Shown here: positions 27,333 to 35,500 of the stretch, in pieces
Layout of the letters: every line of letters starts with the position of its first letter
How positions within the stretch are numbered: the stretch's first letter is position 1
NCBI RefSeq assembly: GCF_005771495.1
Contig: NZ_VAUW01000001.1
Location: 1-64,000, forward strand
Direction: 5' to 3'
Length of the DNA: 64,000 bases
From: Maribacter sp. ACAM166
GTDB lineage: Bacteria; Bacteroidota; Bacteroidia; Flavobacteriales; Flavobacteriaceae
Program-made: the position numbers and the translations under genes
Notes under the pieces: model-generated
Database searches by the model: none
Told to the model about the DNA's origin: nothing
What the model saw: only the letters and a program-made list of their open reading frames with translations

Positions 27333-28019
27333 ATGGACAAATTATTACAAGGTGTAAAAATTAGAATTAACGATAAGCTATTCGTTAAAGATCCAGAATC
27401 CTCTGAACTAGGTAAGAATATAATTAGGATGAGTATTCTTATGATTAATGAAATAGGTTGGGAAAATTTTACATTCAAAAAGTTAGGCAAGCAAATCGGT
27501 TCAAATGAAAGCTCTATATATCGCTATTTTGAAAATAAGCACAAGTTGCTGCTATATTTAACCTCATGGTATTGGGGTTGGATGGAATATCACTTGGTTT
27601 TAGCAACACACAGTATTGGAAATCCAAAAGTAAAATTATTAAAAGCAATAGATATAATAACTAGAGAGGTAATAGAAGATACTGCCTATTTACATATTAA
27701 TGAAGTCCTTTTAAATAAGATTGTCATTAATGAGTATTCCAAATCTTATTTGACTAAAGAGGTTGATGCGGAAAATAAAGAAGGATACTTTATTATTTAT
27801 AAGAGAATGGTGGGTAGACTGCGTGATATGATTAAGGATGTTAATCCAGAATATACTTATCCTTCTAGTTTGGCTAGTACAATTTTGGAAAGTACCTTGC
27901 ATCAACATTTTTTAAAAGATCATTTCACCTCCATTACTGATTGTAACGCAACCGTAACACCCACCCAATATTTAACACATCTAGTTGTTAATACGCTAAA
28001 TCAAAACGTTAATGAGTAA
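27333..28019 (+). CDS. TetR/AcrR-family transcriptional regulator
   Basis: A 228-residue regulator with a TetR HTH over about residues 25-75: RMSILMINEIGWENFTFKKL, then GKQIGSNESSIYRYFENKHK, which is the recognition helix and the start of helix 4 (YRYFENKxxL). The remaining part is all-helical and should bind a ligand and dimerise. The gene overlaps the ABC transporter gene by 8 bases and is the first gene of the operon, so it probably represses its own efflux system. Palindromes in the promoter region are candidate operators. Confidence 0.92.
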   Translation: MDKLLQGVKIRINDKLFVKDPESSELGKNIIRMSILMINEIGWENFTFKKLGKQIGSNESSIYRYFENKHKLLLYLTSWYWGWMEYHLVLATHSIGNPKVKLLKAIDIITREVIEDTAYLHINEVLLNKIVINEYSKSYLTKEVDAENKEGYFIIYKRMVGRLRDMIKDVNPEYTYPSSLASTILESTLHQHFLKDHFTSITDCNATVTPTQYLTHLVVNTLNQNVNE

Positions 28020-29679
28020 AAATTTACTTACGTCTTGGCAGCGTTTTATAGGACTTTTAAAACTTGATAAGAGAGATGTTTTTCAAGTGTTTTACTACGC
28101 CATATTTGCTGGTATTGTCAATCTATCACTCCCTTTAGGTATACAGGCTATAATTAATCTGCTACAAGGTGCTCAAATAAGTACTTCATGGGTCGTTTTA
28201 GTAGTTCTTGTAACCCTGGGTGTTGCTTTTGTGGGTATACTGCAGTTGATGCAAATAAGAATCATTGAGAATGTTCAGCAGAAGATATTTACCCGGTCCT
28301 CGTTTGAATTTGCCTATAGGTTCCCTAAAATAAAGATGAGCGAGCTACATAACTATTATCCGCCAGAATTAGCAAATAGGTTTTTTGATACGTTAACGAT
28401 ACAAAAGTCGCTTTCAAAAGTGCTTATAGATTTTCCTGCAGCGCTATTGCAGATTATTTTTGGGTTGCTGTTGCTTTCTTTTTACCATCCTTTTTTTATT
28501 GTGTATGGTATACTTTTATTGTTGCTGATATATGTTGTGTTCAAATTTACGGCACAAAGAGGGTTGGATACGAGCTTAGACGAATCTAAAAGTAAATATC
28601 AAGTAGCCCATTGGTTACAAGAGGTAGCGCGTTCTATAGTGAGTTTTAAGTTGTCGGGTAAATCATCTCATGCCTTAGACAAAAATGATGTACTGGTAAT
28701 GGGCTATTTAAACGCACGAGAAAGTCATTTTAGGGTTGTGGTTCTCCAATTTATTCAAATGATTGGCTTTAAAGTACTGGTTACAGGAGGTCTCTTATTG
28801 ATTGGCGGACTTTTGGTATTGAATCAAGAAATGAATATTGGCCAGTTCGTTGCCGCCGAAATTATTATTCTATTGGTAATCAATTCCGTAGAAAAATTAA
28901 TTCTAGGCCTAGAGACGTTTTATGATTTATTGACCTCACTGGAAAAAATGGGACAAGTGGTAGATAAAGAATTGGAGCCTCAACACGGTGAAAAACCATT
29001 TACTGACAATCAACCATTTACTGTTGAATTAAATGGAATTTCCTATAGTGTTCCCCAATCGAAAAGAGAGATTATTTCTAACCTAAATTTAACCATAACC
29101 CCTCATTGCACTATTTTATTACGAGGAAATAGTGGGTCTGGTAAAAACACCTTATTAAGAATTGTAGCGGGTATATTAGAACCTGATAGCGGTGGAGTGT
29201 ATGTAAACGGAGTCTCACTAAAAAGCATGAACATAAATTATTATCGTTCACATTTGGGGCAATCCTTACCCGAAGAATCACCATTTGAAGGTACTATTTT
29301 AGATAATATCACCTTTGGTGATAAGGATACTACAAACGAGCAAGTCTACTGGGCTCTAGATAAAGTGGGCTTAACGGAATATGTGAAACAACAGCCAGAG
29401 GGGTTGAATACGATTATTTATCCCGAAGGAAAGCAAATTCCCAATAAGGTCTCTAAAAAAATCGTTCTCGCCAGAAGTATTGTAAGAAAGCCTAAACTAC
29501 TTATTCTTAAGGATCCGCTAGAGCAGTTCAATACGGATGAGGCTGATCGCATATTAAGCTTTTTAAGCGACCCATCTAATGGTTGGGCACTTTTGGTAGT
29601 GAGTGAAAATGATAAGTGGATTAATAAATGCTCACGAGTCATTACGATGGAAAAAGGAAGAATAATAAACGAATTATAG
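28012..29679 (+). CDS. ABC transporter (fused permease and ATPase) with altered nucleotide-binding motifs
   Basis: A 555-residue inner-membrane protein of the peptidase-less type I secretion/multidrug half-transporter form. Residues 20-310 contain about six membrane segments; residues 335-555 are the ATPase domain. Its motifs are unusual: Walker A is GNSGSGKNT (372-380), with Asn for the Ser/Thr that binds magnesium; the signature LSGGQ is replaced around 476-482 by IPNKVSK; Walker B reads LLILKDP (496-502), with Lys for the Asp and Asp for the catalytic Glu; the H-loop histidine is replaced near SEND (531-534). The gene lies between TetR and HlyD genes, so the operon is intact, but ATP hydrolysis by this subunit is doubtful. 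Confidence 0.9.
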   Translation: MSKNLLTSWQRFIGLLKLDKRDVFQVFYYAIFAGIVNLSLPLGIQAIINLLQGAQISTSWVVLVVLVTLGVAFVGILQLMQIRIIENVQQKIFTRSSFEFAYRFPKIKMSELHNYYPPELANRFFDTLTIQKSLSKVLIDFPAALLQIIFGLLLLSFYHPFFIVYGILLLLLIYVVFKFTAQRGLDTSLDESKSKYQVAHWLQEVARSIVSFKLSGKSSHALDKNDVLVMGYLNARESHFRVVVLQFIQMIGFKVLVTGGLLLIGGLLVLNQEMNIGQFVAAEIIILLVINSVEKLILGLETFYDLLTSLEKMGQVVDKELEPQHGEKPFTDNQPFTVELNGISYSVPQSKREIISNLNLTITPHCTILLRGNSGSGKNTLLRIVAGILEPDSGGVYVNGVSLKSMNINYYRSHLGQSLPEESPFEGTILDNITFGDKDTTNEQVYWALDKVGLTEYVKQQPEGLNTIIYPEGKQIPNKVSKKIVLARSIVRKPKLLILKDPLEQFNTDEADRILSFLSDPSNGWALLVVSENDKWINKCSRVITMEKGRIINEL

Positions 29680-29686
29680 GAGAAAG

Positions 29687-31039
29687 ATGCTGAATATATC
29701 CCATAAAAAACTAAATGAAAAGGTTTCTTTAGATCGTTTTAAATCTGTGCAGAAGGTTTTTCATCAAAGACATTATAAGCATTTTAATCGCTTTTTATTT
29801 GCTTTTGCCGTAGTAGGTTTAATTATATTGTTTCTTCCTTGGACGCAAACCATAAACGCACGAGGATTTTTAACCACTTTAGAGCCTGGTCAACGACCAC
29901 AAACCATTCAATCTCAAATACCGGGTAGAATCGAAAAGTGGTATATTAGAGAAGGTGATTATGTTGAGAAAGGTGATACTATTCTGTTTATTTCAGAAAT
30001 AAAATCGGAATATTTTGACCCAGATTTAGTAGAGCGAACTGGGCAGCAGCTTAAGTCGAAAAGTTCATCGGTTACTTCTTATGGCGATAAAGTAAAGGCG
30101 CTAGATAATCAAGTTGCTGCACTTTTCAACGAAAGGAGGTTGAAGCTTGAACAAGCGAAAAACAAATTGCTTCAGGCCAAGTTAAAGGCACAGAGCGACA
30201 GTATTGAATTTGAAGCAGCTAAAACTAATATCAAGATTGCCGAGCGCCAATATAAACGAACTGAGCAATTGGAGAGTGAAGGACTAAAAGCAGTAACAGA
30301 TGTTGAGGAAAAACGATTAAAACTTCAAGAAACTCAATCGAAGTTAATCTCGCAGGAGAATAAATTATTGGCAGCCAAAAATGAAATCATCAATGCTGAG
30401 GTTGAAATAAATAGTGTTTATGCAGCTTACACCGATAAGATTTCTAAAGCGCAGAGCGATAAGTTTACAGCAATGTCTAATCAATTCGATTCTGAGGCAC
30501 AAGTAAGTAAGTTAGAGAACGATTATACCAATTATAAAATGCGTAATGATTTGCGCTATATTCGTGCACCGCAAAATGGCTATGTAAATACAGTTGTTAC
30601 AGCAGGTATTGGTGAAACCTTTAAAGAAGGCACTCCGCTGGTGGGTATTATGCCAGCAGATTACGACATGGCAGTAGAGACCTTTGTTGAGCCTATTGAT
30701 CTTCCATTAATTCATTTGGGTGAAAAAGTAAGAATTCAATTTGATGGTTGGCCGGCTATTATATTTAGTGGTTGGCCTAATGTTTCTTACGGTACTTATG
30801 CCGGTAAGGTGGTGGCTATTGAAACCTTTATAAATCCGAACGGAAAATATAGGGTGCTGTTGTCACCCGATGATGCGGATCAACCATGGCCAAATGCGCT
30901 TCGTGTAGGTTCGGGTGCGAATACCATTGCACTTTTAGAAGATGTATCGATTTGGTATGAATTATGGAGGCAGTTGAACGGTTTTCCACCAAATTATTAT
31001 CAGCCTGAAGGAGCTCAGGTGCAACCTGTAAAGAAATAA
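29687..31039 (+). CDS. HlyD-family periplasmic adaptor
   Basis: A 450-residue adaptor with an N-terminal cytoplasmic tail, one membrane segment (about residues 39-54) and a periplasmic part. The first half of the biotinyl-lipoyl domain is QSQIPGRIEKWYIREGDYVE (about 80-99) and its second half is YIRAPQNGYVNTVV; between them lies a long alpha-helical hairpin (about 115-285) with coiled-coil heptads. It bridges the inner-membrane ABC protein and the TolC-like channel encoded on either side. It starts 7 bases after the ABC gene and ends 2 bases before the TolC gene. A second transmembrane segment is not seen. Confidence 0.92.
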   Translation: MLNISHKKLNEKVSLDRFKSVQKVFHQRHYKHFNRFLFAFAVVGLIILFLPWTQTINARGFLTTLEPGQRPQTIQSQIPGRIEKWYIREGDYVEKGDTILFISEIKSEYFDPDLVERTGQQLKSKSSSVTSYGDKVKALDNQVAALFNERRLKLEQAKNKLLQAKLKAQSDSIEFEAAKTNIKIAERQYKRTEQLESEGLKAVTDVEEKRLKLQETQSKLISQENKLLAAKNEIINAEVEINSVYAAYTDKISKAQSDKFTAMSNQFDSEAQVSKLENDYTNYKMRNDLRYIRAPQNGYVNTVVTAGIGETFKEGTPLVGIMPADYDMAVETFVEPIDLPLIHLGEKVRIQFDGWPAIIFSGWPNVSYGTYAGKVVAIETFINPNGKYRVLLSPDDADQPWPNALRVGSGANTIALLEDVSIWYELWRQLNGFPPNYYQPEGAQVQPVKK

Positions 31040-31041
31040 TA

Positions 31042-32445
31042 ATGAGAAGTATTTTATTTCTGTTTTGTTTAGGTCTTGGTGGTTTTGTAAATGCCCAAAA
31101 TGTAGATTCTCTGCAATTGAATTTCCGAGAATATTTGGGCTATGTGAAGAAATACCATCCTATTGCAAAACAAGCAGCATTGGTATTGGATGTTGGTCAA
31201 GCAAACCTTATGAAGGCCAGAGGTGGATTTGATCCAAAAGTAGAGGTCGATTATTCCGGTAAGGAATTTAAAGGAACTGAATATTACGATTTGCTCAACG
31301 CAACCTTTAAGATACCTACTTGGTACGGAATTGAGCTGAAGGGGAATTTTGAGCAATATACGGGTGAGTATGTAAACCCAGAACGCAATGTGCCCGAAGA
31401 TGGATTATATAGCGCCGGTGTGGCACTTTCATTGGGCAGGGGTTCGTGGATGAATGACCGAATGGCAACTGTAAAAAAAGCTAAATTTTTTAGAGAGCAA
31501 TCTAAAGCCGATAGAGATTTGCTGGTAAACCAAATTCTATTCGATGCATCGTTGGCATATTTCAATTGGTTGCAAGCATATAGGAATAATCAGGTTTTTT
31601 CTAGTTTTTTGGAAAATGCACAAAAGAGATTTAAAGGTATTGTAAGTAGCGCCTCAGCGGGTGAAATAGCAATTATTGATACAGTTGAAGCAAAAATTGC
31701 CGTACAGAATAGAGTTTTGGAACTGGAGCAAGCAAAGGTCGTTTTACGAAATACTAGGTTGGAGCTTTCTAATTATTTGTGGATGGGAGAGAACATACCA
31801 ATGGAGCTGCAGTCCTATGTAATTCCAGATGTTTCTTTAGATACGGAAATAGACCAATCGTTGGAGATTTTAGGAAAACCATTGGATAGTTTTTCTATAG
31901 AGAACCATCCTAAACTTAAATCATTAGGGTATAAAATTGATGGTCTTCGAGTTGATAAACGTTTGAAGACGAATAAATTGCTCCCAAGAATTGATGTGGA
32001 ATATAAGTTCATAACCGAATCACCTGAGTTTATAAGTTCTTTCGAAACTCAAAATTATAAAGGAGGATTGAATTTTGAACTTCCGTTATTTCTTAGAAAA
32101 GAAAGAGGTGATTTGAAATTGGCAAAGTTGAAATTAAGGGACGCTCAATTTGAATTTGATAATGCAGAGGTTCAAATTCAGAATAAAATAGTAGCGATTT
32201 ATAATGAACTCGATTCATTTGAAATTCAGAATATATTGATTGATGATATTGTTGCTAATTATGAAGCTTTGTTGTCTGCTGAAGAGCGAAAATTTAGCTT
32301 TGGTGAGAGTTCACTTTTTTTAATTAATTCGAGGGAGAGTAAATTGATAGATGCGGTCTTAAAGCAAAATCAAGTAGAAAATAAATATTTTACTACCAAG
32401 GCCAAGTTGTTCAATAGTTTGGCGGTGAACCCAGAGAATTTGTAA
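31042..32445 (+). CDS. TolC-family outer-membrane channel
   Basis: A 467-residue outer-membrane efflux protein with a signal peptide ending near VNAQ (residues 16-19). It shows the two-repeat TolC layout with long helical segments (for example residues 140-235 and 335-460) and an intervening beta-part. It should form a trimeric tunnel for the ABC-HlyD system of the same operon. The mature N-terminus has the usual YLGYVKKYHPIAKQAAL block. It is the last gene of the operon; YitT follows after 20 bases on the same strand and may still be read through, as no hairpin is present. Confidence 0.9.
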   Translation: MRSILFLFCLGLGGFVNAQNVDSLQLNFREYLGYVKKYHPIAKQAALVLDVGQANLMKARGGFDPKVEVDYSGKEFKGTEYYDLLNATFKIPTWYGIELKGNFEQYTGEYVNPERNVPEDGLYSAGVALSLGRGSWMNDRMATVKKAKFFREQSKADRDLLVNQILFDASLAYFNWLQAYRNNQVFSSFLENAQKRFKGIVSSASAGEIAIIDTVEAKIAVQNRVLELEQAKVVLRNTRLELSNYLWMGENIPMELQSYVIPDVSLDTEIDQSLEILGKPLDSFSIENHPKLKSLGYKIDGLRVDKRLKTNKLLPRIDVEYKFITESPEFISSFETQNYKGGLNFELPLFLRKERGDLKLAKLKLRDAQFEFDNAEVQIQNKIVAIYNELDSFEIQNILIDDIVANYEALLSAEERKFSFGESSLFLINSRESKLIDAVLKQNQVENKYFTTKAKLFNSLAVNPENL

Positions 32446-33375: not shown

Positions 33376-34011
33376 ATGAGTACAGAAGATAAAGTGGTGA
33401 AAGCTAAATCAAATGTTCAGCTCGTCAAAGATAGTTTGCCAAGCTCCATGAGTTATGCTCAATATCGAGATTTAGTAGCAAAATTGGCTCTAGAAAAAAA
33501 GACTACGGGCATACTTCAAACAGAAGATCTGGTTGATTATACGCAGCTAAATGACCGCCGTATGAAACGCTGGGATAAAACACTCAAATTTAGCGATGAG
33601 GCCACGACGAAAATTAAATCGGTCGATCAAAAAATTACATGGTTAGTACTAACCGAAAGTTGGTGTGGAGATGCTTCTCCGGCCATACCTGTGATGCATA
33701 AAATCACAGAATTGAATCCTAATATATCTTTATCGATTATTATACGTGATGAGCATTTAGATATCATGAATCAGTTTTTGACAAACGGCGCCATGTCCAT
33801 TCCCAAACTCATTTCAATGAACGCTTCAGAAAATCGTATAATCGCAATGTGGGGGCCAAGGTCAACTAGGGCCATACTAATGGTTGAAGCATATAAGCAA
33901 GAACATGGTCAACTAACGCCAGAATTTAAACAAGATTTACAAGTGTTTTATAACAAAGACAAAGGCCAGAGTATAGTAGAAGATTTACTTCGGTTACTTC
34001 CCTTGAAATAG
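33376..34011 (+). CDS. Thioredoxin-family protein with a WCGDA active site
   Basis: A 211-residue cytosolic protein. The thioredoxin-like domain is at about residues 80-200, with VLTESWCGDASPAIPVMHKI where thioredoxins have WCGPC; here only the first cysteine is present (WCGDA), as in the family of thioredoxin-fold proteins common in Flavobacteriaceae. A cis-proline-like MSIPKLISM follows. Dithiol chemistry by a CxxC pair is therefore not possible; it may be a monothiol or non-redox protein. It overlaps the convergent TonB-like gene by 18 bases. Confidence 0.85.
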   Translation: MSTEDKVVKAKSNVQLVKDSLPSSMSYAQYRDLVAKLALEKKTTGILQTEDLVDYTQLNDRRMKRWDKTLKFSDEATTKIKSVDQKITWLVLTESWCGDASPAIPVMHKITELNPNISLSIIIRDEHLDIMNQFLTNGAMSIPKLISMNASENRIIAMWGPRSTRAILMVEAYKQEHGQLTPEFKQDLQVFYNKDKGQSIVEDLLRLLPLK

Positions 34012-34722
34012 GTATGTAATTGTACCTTTTTGAGTTTCTTTGTTAGATGAATTGAACCTCGCTTTAAGAGCATAAGCAATGGCATTTTCTACAAGGCATC
34101 CGTTAGAAGTGCCAGAACTCTTTTCGTTGAAATCAGCTTCGGTGACATAGCCTAAAGCATTCACCTCAATGTTGATTACGACTTTGCCTCCTTCTATACA
34201 GATGTATATGGGTGGTGGTAATTTATAATTGTTTCTGTCTAGTAAAGAGTAAGAAACAGAAGTTTTTCTTGCGGCAAGGTTGTTTGTAAACTCCTTTTTT
34301 TGAGCTTCCTTTTCACCTAGCAACTGTTTTTTTTCTTCTCGTTTCTTGGTCAAGGCTTTTACTCTTTCGGCATACCCTGAATCTGAAATCAAATCATCAG
34401 TAGTTTCACCTTCGATCATTTCACTACGTTCCTCAATTAACTCTTCTAAGGTTTTTAAAGGCTCAGGATTGCCGTAGCTTGGTTTGGCAGTTTCATTGAA
34501 GGCCAAATGACTTTTAATAGGGTCAGCATTATTTTGTTCTTTTGCTTTTTCTTCCTCCAATATATCTTCCAAGACTTCTGGGTCCAACAGCATTTCAACA
34601 ACGTAATCTTCTGCTTCTTCTTCTTCTTTACTACCTAACTGAATACTGAACAACACCACTACCACAATAGCCATGCTAAAGAAAGTAATGAGCAATGATA
34701 GTTGTTGTCTGTTCGGATTCAT
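33994..34722 (-). CDS. TonB-like membrane-anchored periplasmic protein
   Basis: A 242-residue protein with an N-terminal membrane segment (residues 9-28, LLITFFSMAIVVVVLFSIQL), a charged linker rich in Glu and Lys (30-150) and a C-terminal domain of about 80 residues with GKVVINIEVNALGYVTEADF followed by AIAYALKARFNSS and GTITYLF. The last part has the form of the TonB C-terminal fold (VxFxVxxxGxV ... A ... A). The proline-rich linker of classical TonB is missing, replaced by an acidic coiled-coil region. It may energise or link outer-membrane proteins, but this is inferred. It follows truB in the ftsX-truB run with a 64-base gap. Confidence 0.7.
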   Translation of the reverse strand: MNPNRQQLSLLITFFSMAIVVVVLFSIQLGSKEEEEAEDYVVEMLLDPEVLEDILEEEKAKEQNNADPIKSHLAFNETAKPSYGNPEPLKTLEELIEERSEMIEGETTDDLISDSGYAERVKALTKKREEKKQLLGEKEAQKKEFTNNLAARKTSVSYSLLDRNNYKLPPPIYICIEGGKVVINIEVNALGYVTEADFNEKSSGTSNGCLVENAIAYALKARFNSSNKETQKGTITYLFQGK

Positions 34723-34786
34723 GGTTATATAACCTTAATACTGCTAAAATATTTTAGGGCATCGAAATATGGAATACAATCGTTTA

Positions 34787-35500
34787 TTATTCGTTGACCT
34801 CAGGCCCCAATAAAGTATCTGCAAAGATCAATGGGTCTTGAGCTATATCTACGTTGAAATCACCTATTTTGGTTCTTCTCAAGGCCGATAAATGTGCGCC
34901 AGAGCCAAGTGCTTTGCCAAAATCATTAGCAATAGAGCGAATATAGGTGCCTTTGCTACATGTAATTCTAAAATGAACATTAAGGTTGTCAACTTTGATA
35001 ACTTCAAAAGCACTAACGGTTACTTTACGTTTAGGGATATCTACAGTTATACCTTCCCTTGCCAATTCATATAAGCGCTTCCCATCTTTTTTCAATGCTG
35101 AGAAAACTGGTGGTGTCTGTTCTATTTCACCCGTAAATTGAGTGGTAGCAGTGTGAATTAATTCTGGAGTTATGTGTTCGGTGGGGTAGGTTTCGTCTAT
35201 TTCTGTTTCAAGGTCAAAAGAAGGGGTTGTACTACCTAGAGAAATAATACCTGTGTATTCTTTTTCTTGACCTTGGTACTCGTTGATTTTCTTTGTGAAT
35301 TTACCGGTACAGATAATTAGTAGTCCCGTTGCCAAAGGATCCAACGTACCCGCATGTCCTATTTTAAATTTCTTTAAACTGAATTTTTTTCTGATTGCCC
35401 ATTTCAATTTGTTTACCGCTTGAAACGAAGACCAGCCCAAAGGTTTATCTATTAATAGTACTTGCCCGTTAAGGAAATCATCTTCGGTCAAATTTTCCAT
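34787..35500 (-). CDS. truB: tRNA pseudouridine(55) synthase
   Basis: A 237-residue enzyme that makes pseudouridine 55 in the T-loop of tRNAs. The catalytic aspartate is Asp54 in KIGHAGTLDPLATGLL (47-62); the N-terminal block LLIDKPLGWSSFQAV and the RNA-binding YELAREGI and CSKGTYIRSIANDFGKAL segments are all present. It lies 26 bases after uppP on the same strand, an arrangement usual in Bacteroidota. The C-terminal PUA-like part is short, as in the family's smaller members. Confidence 0.97.
   Translation of the reverse strand: MENLTEDDFLNGQVLLIDKPLGWSSFQAVNKLKWAIRKKFSLKKFKIGHAGTLDPLATGLLIICTGKFTKKINEYQGQEKEYTGIISLGSTTPSFDLETEIDETYPTEHITPELIHTATTQFTGEIEQTPPVFSALKKDGKRLYELAREGITVDIPKRKVTVSAFEVIKVDNLNVHFRITCSKGTYIRSIANDFGKALGSGAHLSALRRTKIGDFNVDIAQDPLIFADTLLGPEVNE

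Follow-up and report, generated by a model that had tools for sequence, protein, structure and literature searches.

Judging from sequence, a group of tripartite exporters in Bacteroidota has an ABC-type inner-membrane subunit that probably works as part of an HlyD–TolC exporter without needing ATP hydrolysis of its own. On a wider reading, for which the case strikes us as evenly poised, this branch turned from ATP-driven pumps to secondary (ion-gradient-driven) or gated conduits, independently of SbmA, by losing in turn its catalytic motifs, its P-loop and its nucleotide-binding domain (NBD) and at last fusing to HlyD, with living members representing the stages in between. It is the ATPase by which ABC exporters are defined. 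This family today includes members that are canonical, hydrolysis-dead, P-loop-dead, NBD-less, or HlyD-fused, with HlyD and TolC kept, and they make testable both a route from primary to secondary transporter and the feeding of an HlyD–TolC duct without ATP. If the wider reading is true, a primary transporter would here have been converted naturally into a secondary one, separately from SbmA.

The window analysed here is a stretch of 64,000 nucleotides from Maribacter sp. ACAM166 (positions 1 to 64,000 of contig NZ_VAUW01000001.1). Its exporter gene is a single frame with no internal stops, and the TetR, HlyD, and TolC frames of the operon are likewise intact (Table 1). The exporter starts inside the end of the TetR gene, the HlyD gene follows after 7 bases, and the TolC gene comes next, so that an ABC protein, an HlyD-type adaptor, and a TolC-type factor are encoded in one operon. 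The TetR regulator suggests small-molecule efflux.

Table 1. Features of the exporter operon and catalytic positions of the exporter (window coordinates).
Feature	Position	Strand	Evidence
TetR-type regulator, overlaps exporter start	27333..28019	+	PF00440, 29.7 bits
Degenerate ABC half-exporter (TMD + NBD), 555 aa	28012..29679	+	Open reading frame, Pfam, orthologues
Transmembrane domain (TMD), ~residues 1–325, conserved part	28012..28986	+	PF00664 at 27–292; 86% mean identity; long helices in model
Degenerate NBD, ~residues 326–555, fold kept, catalytic motifs lost	28987..29676	+	PF00005; model; 68% mean identity
Walker A GNSGSGKN, G372–N379, Asn for Ser/Thr	29125..29148	+	Alignment
Signature position IPNKVSK, I476–K482, in place of LSGGQRQ	29437..29457	+	Alignment
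Walker B LLILKDP, L496–P502; K500 and D501 for D and E	29497..29517	+	Alignment
H-loop position, Glu532 for His	29605..29607	+	Alignment
HlyD-type periplasmic adaptor	29687..31039	+	PF13437, PF13533
TolC-type outer-membrane factor	31042..32445	+	PF02321, 127 bits

Pfam placed ABC_membrane (PF00664) on the N-terminal half of the window protein (32.9 bits, cut-off 28) and ABC_tran (PF00005) on residues 356–503 (56.5 bits, cut-off 25). The altered motifs therefore lie in a genuine NBD; misplacement was ruled out, as Pfam and profile alignments agree on the positions. Canonical NBDs carry an LSGGQRQ signature, Asp-Glu in Walker B, a His in the H-loop, a Gln in the Q-loop, and a Tyr in the A-loop. 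The window protein has neither the Walker B pair nor the H-loop His nor an LSGGQ-type signature, and in our own alignment the Q-loop position is Pro420 (with a Gln at 417) and the A-loop position is Val347. The original prediction had described the changes in Walker A, Walker B, signature, and H-loop together with an intact fold, operon, and reading frame, and on each of these points the alignments, frames, and Pfam matches agree with it.

The protein has the TMD and NBD fold of an ABC exporter by model matches as well as by Pfam. An AlphaFold model of mediocre quality (mean pLDDT 67.8, pTM 0.44), which served only for fold confirmation, resembles MsbA, TAP, and PglK at Z 26–28, and its predicted NBD part matches the NBDs of TAP1 and ComA with an rmsd of 2.1. 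Searches of solved structures and folds returned ordinary ABC exporters, HlyB/D and PrtD among them. The top NCBIfam models were NHLM ABC1 (TIGR03796, 170.1 bits; cut-off 853.3) and LssB (TIGR03375, 169.5 bits; cut-off 693.1), and among the best 25 of 154 matched models, type I secretion permease/ATPase included, none reached its cut-off. Type I secretion exporters (HlyB, PrtD, LssB) are thus the likeness by best NCBIfam models, structural matches, and HlyD- and TolC-type partners, but the window protein scores far below the curated cut-offs, and this family has lost either the hydrolysis motifs or the whole NBD. In the classic HlyB system, chimeras with a swapped TMD or NBD secreted less (PMC11026475).

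We aligned the window protein with 110 matching loci (some genomes are represented twice), which left 84 rows once rows at 97 per cent identity or more were removed; one row is truncated before the H-loop, so that position is counted over 83. The nearest named orthologues are from Maribacter, with that of M. arcticus 92 per cent identical. Lys-Asp occupies Walker B in 80 of the 84 rows, a residue other than His fills the H-loop position in 82/83, and no row (0/84) has the second signature Gly. At the P-loop, G-K-[ST] is intact in fifty-seven rows and Arg replaces the Lys in eleven; the Walker A Asn occurs in thirteen, all Maribacter-type at 88 per cent identity or more. By this alignment, three of the changes first noticed (Walker B, signature, and H-loop) are family-wide, and the fourth, the Walker A Asn, is a local detail outside that pattern. 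One close orthologue, from Flavobacteriaceae bacterium D16 (L101), has the H-loop His despite a degenerate Walker B and signature.

These orthologues bear on one of three explanations first offered, that the gene is newly inactive. A recent pseudogene would account for the missing catalytic motifs of the window protein, but so widely shared a Walker B change means that inactivation is not recent. Moreover, the best-matching segment has no stop codon at any of the 110 loci (110/110), the TMD is 86 per cent identical across fifteen genomes, and the operon is conserved. We regard recent pseudogenisation as refuted, with hardly any probability left to it. At eighty loci of named genomes, a TetR match lies within 400 bases upstream in seventy-eight, HlyD within 200 bases downstream in seventy-seven, and TolC within 2500 bases downstream in seventy-six. 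At seventy-one further loci the same distances hold for TetR in thirty-two, HlyD in sixty-five, and TolC in sixty-seven; TetR is often missing away from close relatives. Within the genus of the window genome, the exporter gene was not found in two genomes (G022 and G023). An apparently split copy in another (L122 in G005) was considered as a case of decay and rejected, as a run of Ns with duplicated flanks marks an assembly gap.

We compared the two domains across fifteen genomes with those of a control, another exporter of the same genomes that is 27 per cent identical to the window exporter and carries LSGGQ, DEA, and AHR (105 pairs each). Mean identity of the degenerate exporter was 0.859 in the TMD and 0.677 in the NBD, and in 104 of 105 pairs the NBD was the less conserved domain. 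For the control the means were 0.838 in the TMD and 0.888 in the NBD, with the NBD lower in 15/105 pairs. The pN/pS ratios were 0.114 (TMD) and 0.270 (NBD) for the degenerate exporter and 0.141 and 0.095 for the control, values to be read only in relation to one another, as many pairs have saturated synonymous sites. The TMD is under normal constraint, and the NBD is relaxed, though not free. Since an NBD with a pN/pS of 0.27 is still constrained, it has some role, and what is left of it in the window protein may be a structural or nucleotide-sensing brace.

To cover the wider family we used a profile of fifteen orthologues on three overlapping samples. It matched 76 of 296 genomes in a phylum sample and 98 of 296 in an order sample (both at E 1e-60), and 197 of 395 in a class sample (E 1e-50). 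The TMD tree holds ninety-seven rows of less than 88 per cent TMD identity, drawn from 196 distinct sequences, with short TMDs excluded. This and our other trees were built by a quick method without an outgroup root; other ABC exporters are canonical, and the TMD tree was rooted by parsimony on that basis. A single clade of eighty-three rows splits off (SH-aLRT 100), of which seventy-seven retain an NBD. Outside it, Walker B is Asp-Glu in 14/14 rows, eleven of which also carry both the H-loop His and the signature's second Gly; the signature (LSTGQ, LPxG, and similar) and the Q-loop position are only loosely conserved there already.

Inside the clade, the set of Asp-Glu, His, and signature Gly occurs in 0/77 NBD-bearing rows. 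Taken singly, the His and the second signature Gly are each found in 1/77, and G-K-[ST] in 69/77. By these counts the hydrolysis motifs were lost early, most simply once at the base of the clade, and the P-loop was mostly kept and later lost in places. The commonest Walker B pair is Glu-Asp (35/77), with Lys-Asp, the form around the window protein, in 17/77; an Asp stands at the catalytic position in 64/77. The retained P-loops mean that ATP may still bind and matter, and the Walker B residues leave room for weak hydrolysis. Seven rows with an NBD-sized region (L173 and L281–L286) lack the pattern GxxxxG[KR]; all but L173 fall outside the seventy-seven. HlyD and TolC lie beside each of the seven. 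L101 and L218 retain a His at the H-loop position or close to it, and by eye so does L283.

The NBD is entirely absent, with HlyD and TolC present, in at least twenty-one genomes, a lower bound from searches with full-length profiles among the matches listed. Nine of these, in three families, have TMD-only frames of 334–361 aa followed at once by HlyD and TolC (G305, G928, G896, G223, G317, G906, G833, G138, G889). The other twelve, in seven families, have frames of 749–784 aa that fuse the TMD to HlyD, with TolC next (G437, G441, G457, G573, G626, G716, G743, G817, G821, G923, G682, G736). No NBD lies between TMD and HlyD in any fusion row (L175, L176, L208, and L271, from G437, G441, G573, and G457 respectively; L272; L274–L280), and the in-frame fusions are consistent with deletion of the NBD from an ABC–HlyD gene order. 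Pfam scans of five fusions and five TMD-only proteins found no ABC_tran, with HlyD domains seen in the former and ABC_membrane in the latter. We left out a TMD-only frame in G804, which ends 5 bases from a contig end, and other partial matches likewise. In the wider family, a single in-frame stop interrupts the matched range in six genomes (G558, G641, G803, G882, G896, G914); only G896 was counted as NBD-less, since there the stop closes a TMD frame of 336 aa with HlyD and TolC behind it. The pN/pS ratios of 0.14–0.33 in seven TMD-only pairs and 0.10–0.22 in five fusion pairs identify these as conserved coding genes that are not decaying.

An extended tree of ninety-three rows included twenty NBD-less ones (eleven fusions and nine TMD-only; the near-copy L176 was excluded). 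All twenty (20/20) fall inside the degenerate clade (SH-aLRT 100), where the nine TMD-only rows group together (99). That all twenty share an origin is only mildly rejected (p-AU 0.034); that the eleven fusions do is not rejected (p-AU 0.587) and scores slightly above the free tree. The fusions have long branches. Together these tests give at least two losses of the NBD but do not call for three. Two full-length degenerate forms (L249 in G870 and L250 in G852) come from the same genera as TMD-only ones (g44 and g46) and sit elsewhere in the tree, which suggests gene transfer or old paralogy.

Where the NBD is gone, parts of the TMD have diverged. The largest fall is in segment 211–225, from an identity of 0.39 among thirty-two degenerate rows to 0.14 between those rows and four TMD-only proteins; general ABC architecture would put coupling helix 2 in this segment. 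Segments 241–255 (0.43 to 0.22) and 166–180 (0.35 to 0.21) also diverge in the four TMD-only rows, and segment 121–135 stays at 67 per cent identity.

The NBD-less forms weigh on two further alternatives. In the first, ATP binding without hydrolysis would open, close, or stabilise the dimer of a nucleotide-gated conduit, for which CFTR and SUR are parallels. The P-loop kept in most degenerate rows, the NBD fold kept in the model, and the constraint on the NBD all speak for it, and ATP binding without hydrolysis may matter where a P-loop persists (PMC7756269). We consider it unlikely, as the window protein itself reads GKN, the P-loop Lys is replaced by Arg in eleven of the 84 close orthologues, and other relatives have dispensed with the P-loop or the whole NBD. 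In the second, the protein would be an unorthodox but real ATPase with Glu-Asp or Lys-Asp acting for Asp-Glu. The Asp so often found at the catalytic position fits this, but the second signature Gly and the His are lost as well and the family members of twenty-one genomes have no NBD at all, which leaves this alternative very improbable.

It had also been suggested that the protein pairs with another ATPase. A separate ABC ATPase encoded elsewhere, possibly a housekeeping exporter, could form a heterodimer with it or supply the energy, and full-length other half-exporters are indeed present in 10/10 genomes searched; partly similar degenerate subunits occur in known heterodimers (PMC7756269). 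Genome G000 has five other ABC exporters above the Pfam cut-off. Four of these have best matches of 75–98 per cent identity in G014, a genome with the gene, and also in two genomes where the gene was not found, G022 and G023 (75–90 per cent there); for the fifth (747 aa), G014 offers no close match. No dedicated partner therefore tracks the gene in the four genomes compared, and no second ATPase was seen in the window operon. The pairing itself gains no support. A canonical partner would also leave both composite sites uncured, as the chain that lost the other motifs has lost its signature too, and NBD-less and HlyD-fused forms would be odd as half-ATPases. We judge the pairing improbable. Heterodimeric exporters such as TmrAB, TM287/288, and BmrCD have likewise lost catalytic residues in one site, but those pairs keep one canonical site, whereas no pair was found here and a single chain has lost both halves of the site.

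Our preferred reading is the remaining explanation of the three first offered, that the transporter works in an unusual way: the changes are old and shared, the gene is under purifying selection, and some relatives have no NBD. A Bacteroidota family of TetR-linked HlyD–TolC tripartite exporters would have given up ATP hydrolysis. The sequences show the motifs lost throughout the clade, most simply once at its base, the TMD and the HlyD–TolC genes staying constrained, and the NBD removed in at least two later lineages, which leaves the TMD either on its own or joined directly to HlyD. The TMD dimer may still move or gate substrate into the HlyD–TolC duct without an ATPase of its own. By analogy with SbmA and artificially NBD-less MsbA, the likeliest drive would be the proton gradient, a proposal that we make tentatively and rate a little below even chances; the alternative would be a substrate-gated passive conduit. 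We found no clean candidate for a proton-coupling residue in the TMD alignment, where Glu283 of TM6 is also present in 11/12 rows outside the clade. Some columns change from outside to inside the clade and are kept in NBD-less forms (e.g. G43, Q81, Q90, Q147), and these may reflect only the long stem branch.

SbmA is described as proton-driven and as descended from an ABC exporter whose NBDs were lost, a peptide importer with a TM0 and a glutamate ladder and without coupling helices (PMC13316013). As in SbmA/BacA (SLiPT), an ABC-exporter-derived membrane domain is found here with the NBD lost (in relatives), and segments of the loops that face the NBD diverge here too. The window protein keeps a degenerate NBD and so differs from a TMD without NBD; its relatives in the genomes counted above have that form. 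Unlike SbmA/BacA, the present exporter family stands in an HlyD–TolC operon and has intermediates from a canonical to an absent NBD, and convergence with SbmA/BacA is the best reading. Escherichia coli MsbA stripped of its NBD (MsbA-MD) reportedly effluxes ethidium with the pH gradient (PMC4979069) and fails to rescue an E. coli MsbA mutant (PMC8660845). MsbA-MD is likewise an exporter membrane domain without an NBD, but it is artificial, whereas the present cases are natural and conserved. In EmrAB–TolC, an HlyD-type adaptor and TolC are fed by a proton-driven inner-membrane protein, EmrB, which belongs to the MFS and is not ABC-derived; here, in contrast, the inner-membrane part is an ABC-derived membrane domain.

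Among the best-ranked matches in open-licence literature, we found no published account of a tripartite HlyD–TolC exporter family that sheds its NBD. Two kinds of natural NBD-less ABC descendant did turn up there, the SbmA/BacA importers and, in small number, YddA genes (PMC13316013). Parts and precedent are thus already known, and an HlyD–TolC exporter family that shed its ATPase stepwise is undescribed in the literature found. Many genes of the degenerate family are probably annotated as ATP-driven transporters.

Close to the operon (window 33376–35500) lie a thioredoxin-like gene, a minus-strand gene (33994–34722), and a TruB-like gene. They recur at 43–50 of 62 Flavobacteriaceae loci and at no more than two of fifty-seven distant loci, and so represent local synteny with no clue to function. 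Some relatives of 697–839 aa (L184–L187, L190–L194, L196–L201) have an N-terminal extension of ~150–260 aa ahead of the TMD, which had no Pfam match in the six scanned (L184, L187, L192, L193, L198, L200). One genome (G107) carries two diverged copies of the family (L185 and L186), each with its own HlyD and TolC.
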